NCBI GenBank assembly: GCA_902794535.1
Contig: CADBHQ010000004.1
Span: forward strand, 1-64,000
DNA: 64,000 nucleotides
Source: Fibrobacter succinogenes
Lineage (GTDB): Bacteria > Fibrobacterota > Fibrobacteria > Fibrobacterales > Fibrobacteraceae
Direction: 5' to 3'
Of the stretch, positions 15,964 through 17,429 are shown in pieces. A model generated the notes under the pieces. It was not told the origin of the DNA. It did no database searches and saw nothing but the letters and a program-made list of their open reading frames with translations. Position 1 is the stretch's first letter; the number at the start of each line of letters is the position of its first letter. The translations under genes and the position numbers were made by a program.

Positions 15964-17128
15964 TTTTTACCTCTTTGGGGACTTCTGCGGGCTTGGGGGT
16001 GCTGACTTGTTTTGCTTTGAATTCTTCGATCATTTGTCTGAATTCACTAAACAAGTAGAGAGAATCGTTCGGGCCCGGAGCAGATTCCGGGTGGTACTGC
16101 ACGCTGAATGCCGGCAATTGCGTGTGGCGAATGCCTTCGACCGTGTTGTCGTTCAGGTTGATGTGAGTGACTTCGACTTCTTCGGGGAGCGTAATAGCAT
16201 CGATCGCATAGTTGTGGTTCTGGCTCGTGATTTCCACTGCGCCGGTCTTCAAGTTCTTAACCGGATGGTTGCAGCCGTGGTGGCCGAACTTGAGTTTGGA
16301 AACATTTGCGCCTAAGGCGAGGCCGAGCAGCTGGTTACCCAGGCAAATGCCCATCAGAGGAATCTTGCCCAAAAGCTGCTTGACAACGGCGACCACCTGC
16401 GGAAGGCTGTTCGGGTCGGCAGGACCGTTCGAAAGGAACACACCGTCGGGGTTCTTTGCCATAATCTGTTCGTAGGTGGCGGTAATCGGAAGCACCGTGA
16501 CCTTCATGCCCTGGCTTACCAGGTTTCTCAGAATGTTCGTCTTGATACCGAAATCGAGTGCGACCACCTGCAAGTCACCTTCGGTGCTGAGAACGTAGCC
16601 GTTCGGGTCAGAAACCTTACTTGCGTAGTCCTGGCCGTCCAGACCGACCCATTCCTGGGCCTTCTTGATGGCTTCTTCTTCAGTGATGTCGGAACCGTCT
16701 ACGTGCAGGTAAGCCTTCTGGGCGCCATGTTCACGCAGGTGGATTGTGAGGGCGCGAGTATCGACGCCTGCAATGCCCGGCTTGTTGTGCTTGCGCATGT
16801 ATTCGTGCAAGCTTTCTTCTTTCAGTTCCGGGCTGACTTCATCCAACGAGTTCACGACAATTCCGTTCAGGAACACGTCGCGAGATTCGGACTTTTCAAT
16901 GTTTGCGGCGTAGGTGCCGACTTCGGCAGTGGTGAACACCACGAACTGACCCGCGTAAGAGGGGTCGGTCAAAATCTGCTTGTAACCGGCCATACCGGTG
17001 TTGAACACGGCTTCGCCGACGGTGTCAGTGGGAGCGCCAAAGGCGTAGCCCCTAAAAACGGTTCCGTCTGCCAGTGCCAGAAACGCCTTCTTTTCGCGTT
17101 TCGCTTTCCAGTTGAATCTATCAGTCAT
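15950..17128 (-). CDS. carA: Carbamoyl-phosphate synthase small (glutaminase) subunit
   Basis: A 392-residue CarA, the glutamine amidotransferase subunit that feeds ammonia to CarB. The N-terminal domain (KKAFLALADGTVFRGYAFGA to about residue 150) is followed by a class I GATase with nucleophile Cys in GICLGNQLLG and the HPESAPGPND motif near the C-terminus. It is the first gene of the operon. Its ATG overlaps the TGA of an upstream leader ORF (17125-17292), and a terminator hairpin lies 33-63 bases before the start, so expression probably depends on attenuation. Confidence 0.97.
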   Translation of the reverse strand: MTDRFNWKAKREKKAFLALADGTVFRGYAFGAPTDTVGEAVFNTGMAGYKQILTDPSYAGQFVVFTTAEVGTYAANIEKSESRDVFLNGIVVNSLDEVSPELKEESLHEYMRKHNKPGIAGVDTRALTIHLREHGAQKAYLHVDGSDITEEEAIKKAQEWVGLDGQDYASKVSDPNGYVLSTEGDLQVVALDFGIKTNILRNLVSQGMKVTVLPITATYEQIMAKNPDGVFLSNGPADPNSLPQVVAVVKQLLGKIPLMGICLGNQLLGLALGANVSKLKFGHHGCNHPVKNLKTGAVEITSQNHNYAIDAITLPEEVEVTHINLNDNTVEGIRHTQLPAFSVQYHPESAPGPNDSLYLFSEFRQMIEEFKAKQVSTPKPAEVPKEVKNVLL

Positions 17129-17292
17129 AATGTACTCGTTGTGTAGTTAAAATCCGGATAAAAATAAAGGCAAAAGCCAGAAGCTTTTGCCAAACGATAA
17201 AGACGATAAAAAACAGAAAAAAGGAAAATTTTGTGAAATCCAGAGAGCGTCACCTGGTTTCGTTGCGAGATTCCTGCAACGGCGGTACTCAT
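17125..17292 (-). CDS. Putative leader peptide of carA operon (55 aa)
   Basis: A short ORF (MSTAVAGISQRNQVTLSGFH...) with a good ribosome binding site (GAGG five bases before the ATG). It reads through the U-rich tract as FLFSVFYRLYRL, continues across the terminator hairpin and ends with a TGA inside the carA ATG. This is the geometry of the E. coli pyrBI and pyrE leaders, where the ribosome's closeness to a UTP-starved, paused polymerase decides whether the terminator forms. An in-frame upstream ATG at 17322 (65 aa) lacks a clear ribosome binding site. The peptide itself need have no function. Confidence 0.6.
   Translation of the reverse strand: MSTAVAGISQRNQVTLSGFHKIFLFSVFYRLYRLAKASGFCLYFYPDFNYTTSTL
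17161..17191 (-). terminator. Attenuator terminator in carA leader
   Basis: Perfect 9-bp stem (GGCAAAAGC / GCTTTTGCC) with a 5-base loop, followed on the minus strand by TTTATTTTTA. It lies inside the leader ORF and 33 bases before the carA start. It therefore sits between the promoter and the structural genes and cannot serve glnN, which has its own terminator at 17430. Confidence 0.8.
17204..17281 (-). promoter_or_regulatory. Pause hairpin and U-rich tract of the carA attenuator
   Basis: On the minus strand a CGTTGC/GCAACG hairpin (17261-17281) is followed by a transcript segment very rich in U (about 17204-17231, including runs of five to six U). In the pyrBI system such a segment makes RNA polymerase pause when UTP is low, letting the leader ribosome catch up and prevent the terminator at 17161-17191 from folding. 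Confidence 0.55.
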
Positions 17293-17429
17293 GTGTGCCT
17301 CGATGGATTCCGATGTTTTCATCGGGCTCAAAATATAGTAATTCTTTATTCTGTGTTGAAGGGGAATTTTAGAAGATTTTTTTAAGAGCACACGCTGTTT
17401 CACTTTTTGTAAAATTTGCCTTTTTAAAA

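Follow-up and report, generated by a model that had tools for sequence, protein, structure and literature searches.

The stretch of DNA analysed here, referred to as the window, comprises 64,000 nucleotides of contig CADBHQ010000004.1 from Fibrobacter succinogenes (assembly GCA_902794535.1) and carries on its minus strand the genes carA, pyrG and carB, whose identities, as assigned in a preliminary description, are borne out by matches to curated protein families. The closest named relatives of its CarA protein belong to F. succinogenes MAGs (94% identity). The genes and the leader that precedes them are as follows.

11037..14288, minus strand: carB (NF003671, 1573 bits)
14266..15963, minus strand: pyrG, CTP synthase (NF003792, 831 bits)
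15950..17128, minus strand: carA (TIGR01368, 444 bits)
17125..17322, minus strand: near-leaderless leader ORF of 65 codons plus TGA, starting at ATG 17322, its frame fixed in 59/59 loci
17159..17191, minus strand: intrinsic-terminator-like hairpin and U-run within the leader ORF, from a terminator scan, the pattern occurring in 59/59 loci
17192..17239, minus strand: U-rich stretch (48 nt, 0.6 U)
17261..17281, minus strand: CGTTGC/GCAACG hairpin seen in the sequence, a candidate pause hairpin
17310..17325, minus strand: YCCG at the predicted transcript start and short hairpin CCGATG-AAAA-CATCGG enclosing the leader start codon
17332..17337, minus strand: predicted -10 hexamer TATATT, 9 nt upstream of the leader ATG

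The terminator-like hairpin reads GGCAAAAGC-TTCTG-GCTTTTGCC (17191-17169) and has nine perfect pairs, with a tenth if the loop is taken as three nucleotides; TTTATTTTTA lies directly 3' of it. A perfect 9-bp hairpin with a U-run inside the ORF (17191-17159), a very U-rich segment ahead of it, a CGTTGC/GCAACG hairpin (17281-17261) and a leader TGA (17127-17125) overlapping the carA ATG (17128-17126) had all been noted in the preliminary description and are indeed present. The leader itself had been drawn as a 55-codon ORF with a ribosome binding site, which shares the frame but takes a later ATG; the conserved start is the ATG at 17322, which gives 65 codons. A start at ATG 17292 was rejected, as a methionine occurs at residues 9-14 in only 24 of the 59 loci compared below; the GAGG ahead of this ATG falls within the conserved codons Ile-Glu-Ala-His. 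The gene upstream (19619-17499) had been called glnN and credited with a terminator of its own: it does match glutamine synthetase families, although all matches lie under the respective cut-offs, and inspection of 17460-17426 reveals a hairpin that is imperfectly paired and ends in a short T-run, which the terminator scan does not list.

The frequency with which such an arrangement arises by chance was gauged by scanning for the leader anatomy on both strands of 464 kb, made up of the window and 400 kb of a genome of the same species. Two matches were returned, of which only the window leader has a U content of at least 0.4 before the terminator, the other lying inside an ORF of 427 amino acids; the reversed-sequence control gave a single match and none with U of at least 0.4. 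The arrangement in the window thus exceeds what chance would produce.

For comparison we assembled 59 carA loci, 58 from Fibrobacter with a readable start (window included) and one, L122, from a second genus of the family (g5). Of 80 genomes of the genus, 58 gave a carA match at 1e-100 and 22 did not; one of the 22 (G052) was added through another search, while the others, 3 of the 40 good-quality genomes among them, were left out, as was G055, one of the 58 matches, in which the carA start is missing. A further 31 named Fibrobacter loci largely repeat the genus genomes and were not counted twice. Counts of leader types on a CarA tree were set aside, the pattern having mislabelled at least three group 2 rows (L114, L117 and L120). 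Aligning carA leaders had been proposed as a check on the attenuator, and ORF, U-tract and terminator proved to be kept in 59/59 readable loci. In every one of them the leader ATG stands 7-9 nt downstream of a -10-like TA...T hexamer, the ORF runs in a single fixed frame through the U-rich segment and the hairpin, and the hairpin matches the pattern GGCAAA(A/G)G...C(T/C)TTTGCC. The distance from ATG to hairpin takes nine values (62, 95, 125, 128, 131, 134, 140, 143 and 188 nt), all of them 2 mod 3. As our first choice of ATG had used an ORF condition, it was repeated with the motif [TC]CGATG alone, which is single and in the leader frame in 56/59 loci; L109 and L121 have an extra upstream motif that is taken first and lies in another frame, and L122 has GCCTATG instead. 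Between the 58 motifs and the end of the hairpin, stops occur in frame 0 in 2 cases (both extra motifs), in frame +1 in 56 and in frame +2 in 51. Even L082, which has lost most of the leader middle, keeps the frame, the U-tract and the hairpin. The anatomy is thus real and strongly conserved. The leader stop and the carA start form an ATGA overlap in 31/59 loci and the stop lies 3 nt ahead of carA in 9/59, so translation of the leader and of carA may be coupled.

Two further features of these loci were observed. Repeat-like or palindromic inserts occur between the leader terminator and carA in L003, L009, L011, L015, L019 and L029, where the leader ORF is often longer. L109 and L110 encode a CarA identical to that of L112 over the part compared, and the terminator ends of their leaders are alike, whereas the 5' halves are of different types, as if leader halves had been exchanged.

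A YCCG directly before the leader ATG is conserved: position -4 is a pyrimidine in 58/59 loci, -3 is C in 58/59, -2 is C in 59/59 and -1 is G in 58/59, while TA at -15/-14 and TTTG at -10 to -7 are common among the 59. From the spacing of the -10 hexamer, the transcript is predicted to start within a few bases of the leader ATG, and a Shine-Dalgarno site could not be fitted in if this promoter prediction is right. The start would thus not be led by such a site as in Escherichia coli pyrL, the ATG following the -10-like hexamer by 7-9 nt; this is a difference in initiation and not in the principle of coupling. Leaderless starts look like a real class here, since in the 464 kb 20 of 310 genes have a strict -10-like hexamer at 6-9 nt from their first ATG, whereas the frequency at gaps of 20-59 nt would predict 6.2. 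Only 1 of these 20 has CCG before its ATG, and the conserved YCCG of the leader hints at an additional, CTP-sensitive start. In single-sequence folds, the start-codon hairpin CCGATG-AAAA-CATCGG is present in the window group and absent from the leaders of a second type (group 2). In another genus, g4 (L125-L129), carA itself seems to be leaderless, with a -10-like hexamer about 6-8 nt before its ATG and a C-rich start (e.g. TATCTT-ACCCCC-ATG), as if the promoter start had been kept without the leader.

Downstream of this start, U reaches a mean of 0.45 over the 59 loci in the 60 nt ahead of the hairpin, compared with 0.18 in the preceding portion of the ORF and 0.19 in carA; in 58/59 loci this segment is richer in U than any 60-nt window within the first 1,100 nt of the carA that it precedes. 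Codon choice follows suit. Within the U-rich stretch, 9 of the 10 codon pairs ending in U or C favour U (TTT/TTC 139/64, ATT/ATC 102/9, CGT/CGC 43/1), leucine CTT/CTC (27/34) being the sole exception, whereas in carA all 10 favour C (TTT/TTC 166/665, ATT/ATC 311/529, CGT/CGC 45/279, CTT/CTC 175/802), as do 8 of 10 in the earlier leader ORF, with valine (51/9) and tyrosine (7/6) as exceptions. Since U-ending codons are favoured in this stretch and not in carA, the U-richness is selected at the level of the RNA, which is weakly structured there. Over the 48 nt leading up to the hairpin, C makes up 0.22 of the sequence in the 36 loci of the carA-pyrG type, 0.25 in seven separate pyrG loci and 0.10 in 20 group 2 carA loci; its share is 0.08 in L101 and L112, which have a window-type peptide and the other pyrG type upstream, and 0.21 in L122, which has no window-type pyrG behind carA. 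These values are suggestive at most of a role for CTP where pyrG is controlled, and leader ancestry confounds them. The CGTTGC/GCAACG hairpin lacks support as a selected pause hairpin: shuffling the codon order of the region before the U-tract yields equally stable sequences (mean z of the leaders -0.35, n = 62, with 11/62 below -1), and the hairpin is absent as such from group 2 leaders.

The leader also bears a coding signal, with an excess of synonymous differences in its frame in most length sets. Pairwise counts of single-base codon differences, which are not independent events, gave a synonymous/nonsynonymous ratio of 296/280 in the leader frame of 11 distinct 129-nt leaders against 84/489 and 81/490 in the other frames; among the 14 leaders that are 123 nt long the contrast is weaker (338/605 in the leader frame, 305/668 and 140/580 in the others), and one set of three 126-nt leaders shows the reverse. 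In seven length sets pN/pS was 0.18, 0.53, 0.18, 0.85, 0.15, 0.26 and 0.14 before the U-tract and 0.44, 0.64, 2.90, 1.98, 0.36, 0.39 and 0 in the last 60 nt. The motif SIEAH-x3-AV-x2-IS-x-RNQ is common to the window group, the deep Fibrobacter loci L101 and L112, and L122, with differing codons. Group 2 peptides differ at the same place (MKRMELVDF..., MKRTEQQN...), and homology between group 1 and group 2 leader peptides was discarded, there being no detectable similarity in clean sets (probability 0.3, reversed control 0.1). On these comparisons the anatomy is conserved more than the peptide, which is constrained within a type. Leader residues 1-25 are constrained in most sets, though the N-terminal half can be unrelated sequence. 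In a protein search all 49 of 49 candidates matched the leader, the named ones being Fibrobacter hypothetical proteins and one bearing an oxidoreductase name.

The same element recurs on a second pyrimidine gene. When 13 genomes of the genus were searched with the leader peptide, 10 yielded a single match, G004 yielded two, with the second at E 0.06, and G005 and G034 yielded none. In G001 the carA gene has a group 2 leader (L108) and the peptide match lies upstream of a separate pyrG. All seven genomes in which a separate pyrG of the window type has a readable start (G001, G008, G043, G053, G058, G068 and G076; L217, L250-L255) carry the full leader before it, with the ORF crossing the hairpin in the same frame, and in the five of these whose carA leader was also read (G001, G008, G043, G053 and G068) both units carry the element. 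No leader was found before the other pyrG type in 14 fetched loci, nine from the genus and five from other genera. The two pyrG types are dissimilar (41-47% identity) and alternate among Fibrobacter genomes, the leader being seen only with that of the window. Behind carA, pyrG is found in the window, in 28/28 of the L066-L094 loci with enough downstream sequence (the window's own excluded) and, by position, in L095-L099; in L139 the contig ends and the order after carA is unreadable. The six named group 2 loci whose sequence extends past carA (L023, L025, L028, L029, L032 and L062) have carB immediately behind it, as does L122.

Beyond these lineages, no leader was seen by eye in 38 loci of the phylum that belong to other genera, families or classes. 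One of them, L123, keeps carA-pyrG without a leader, which counts against the attenuator reading. In g6 and g9, carA is located behind carB. Upstream of carA in L151, L152, L158, L160 and L161, which are distant Fibrobacterota, stands a terminator-like hairpin of another kind, ending in a long T-run (e.g. GATACCTATCC...GGATGGGTATC-TTTTTT); it has no Rfam match and could serve as a separate attenuator or mark where a neighbouring gene ends.

Taken together, we put at roughly three in four the probability that the carA-pyrG-carB leader is a pyrBI-type attenuator acting through transcription-translation coupling, in a near-leaderless variant and outside the enterobacteria. The pyrBI-like arrangement proposed in the preliminary description thus stands as regards ORF, U-tract and terminator, and falls as regards the leader start with its ribosome binding site, while a pausing role of the CGTTGC/GCAACG hairpin lacks support. 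From the sequence we infer the transcription start, translation of the leader, termination at the hairpin and dependence on UTP or CTP. A ribosome would load at the 5' end of the RNA as soon as this end emerges, as the near-absent 5' UTR would permit. With ample pyrimidines, polymerase would cross the U-rich stretch fast, the hairpin would form and the RNA would be released; at low UTP, and perhaps low CTP, polymerase would slow in the U-rich stretch, and a ribosome that had caught up close behind it would cover the 5' arm of the hairpin and let transcription enter the operon, where translation of the leader and of carA may be coupled through their overlapping stop and start codons. The pyrimidine genes would then likely be fully transcribed only when pyrimidine nucleotides are scarce.

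Coupling alone does not account for everything, as the amino-acid constraint on the leader peptide in most sets exceeds the needs of mere ribosome transit. Control by the nascent peptide, in which a metabolite would determine whether the conserved leader peptide stalls or releases the ribosome, and thereby whether the hairpin forms, would fit the purifying selection in most length sets and the motif shared, over changed codons, by deep Fibrobacter loci and a second genus. We nevertheless hold it to be improbable, given that group 2 carA leaders have the same anatomy with a peptide of no detectable similarity, and that L082 retains frame, U-tract and terminator without most of its middle. Attenuation by an amino acid of the trp or his kind, with ribosomes stalling at control codons for, e.g., arginine, might be entertained because carAB serves arginine synthesis too and CGT codons occur in the U-rich stretch of the window leader. 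CTP synthase, however, plays no role in arginine synthesis, and the presence of the same leader on a separate pyrG therefore argues for a pyrimidine signal and not for arginine; by inspection the leaders have no run of control codons in common, and single-sequence folds revealed no competing antiterminator. We regard such a mechanism as highly improbable.

A PyrR-type mechanism would dispense with the ORF, which would be incidental: UMP-bound PyrR would bind the leader RNA and promote the terminator. The genome of the window does carry a PyrR gene ahead of pyrB (NF003549, 195 bits; L163:921-1481), itself with no evident attenuator ahead, and no leader comparable to that of carA was seen by eye before pyrR-pyrB or pyrE (13 loci each). 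Rfam returned nothing at gathering scores over the window and, at relaxed scores, only a tRNA and weak matches that lie away from the leaders or score far under the gathering thresholds; no PyrR element was found at E <= 5 in L001, L122, L102 and L110 or at E <= 1 in L250 and L101, although a divergent element could escape such a search. Moreover, the fixed frame and the U-ending codons would be left unexplained, and group 1 and group 2 leaders have no visible RNA segment in common beyond the start region and the terminator. We consider control by PyrR distinctly improbable.

The product of pyrG consumes UTP, so a signal based on UTP only would be odd for a pyrG unit. A tentative and rather unlikely extension of the coupling attenuator is that one leader reads CTP, at the YCCG start, and UTP, in the U-rich stretch, together, as a unit re-used on carAB and pyrG. 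High CTP would then make the chain start at C or slip at YCCG, leaving the ATG buried in the CCGAT...ATCGG hairpin or shifted from the 5' end, so that the leaderless ribosome would fail to load; plenty of either CTP or UTP would uncouple the ribosome from polymerase, and the RNA would end.

The pyrBI-type attenuator, which we prefer, has its model in the enterobacteria, the group in which attenuation that senses UTP through ribosome-polymerase coupling was elucidated. Our yardstick, E. coli pyrL, is 44 codons long. Its ATG is preceded by GGAGG, its terminator occupies roughly nt 89-107 of the ORF behind a 48-nt tract with 0.29 U and 0.35 C, and its stop precedes pyrB by 3 nt. The Fibrobacter leader resembles it in an ORF that runs through an intrinsic terminator ahead of the first gene, a pyrimidine-rich stretch before that terminator and a stop next to the start of the structural gene; it differs in that its ORF is longer and near-leaderless instead of following an untranslated leader with GGAGG, in a tract richer in U (0.6 in the window against 0.29) and in serving carA-pyrG-carB, carAB and a separate pyrG. 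The near-absent 5' UTR and the use on two pyrimidine units are thus the features of the variant. The pyrBI terminator of E. coli is placed in a 135-bp leader gene and described as not repressed at normal UTP (PMC4824070); the UTP control exerted by this terminator inside a leader gene is ascribed to coupling (PMC4824070, PMC5021804), of which it is treated as an example (PMC5021804).

An ORF at the predicted 5' end of the transcript likewise recalls trpL of Sinorhizobium meliloti. That leader encodes a 14-residue peptide and serves trp attenuation; to our knowledge it has no U-rich pyrimidine tract with a terminator inside a long ORF. Its leader-peptide ATG is described as the 5' end of the rnTrpL transcript (PMC7298713). 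Pyrimidine control of E. coli carAB P1 is attributed to reiterative transcription at the first transcript bases (PMC6245113). Slippage there occurs at GUUU with UTP and involves no leader ORF or terminator, in contrast to the predicted YCCG start in Fibrobacter. In E. coli pyrC and pyrD and Bacillus subtilis pyrG, CTP-dependent events at the start site are combined with a hairpin or a terminator, but we know of no leader ORF through the terminator in these systems. Our literature search, which covered mostly open-access papers, found nothing on attenuation or on leaderless or start-site control of the carA operon in Fibrobacter.

Fibrobacter are fibre-degrading gut bacteria. If the proposed mechanism is true, a UTP-sensing coupling attenuator arose or spread far beyond the enterobacteria, polymerase and ribosome are coupled in Fibrobacterota, and a leaderless ORF can act as the coupled frame. 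The leader would then offer a natural test system for coupling and would give a role to the small Fibrobacter 'hypothetical proteins' annotated at this position.
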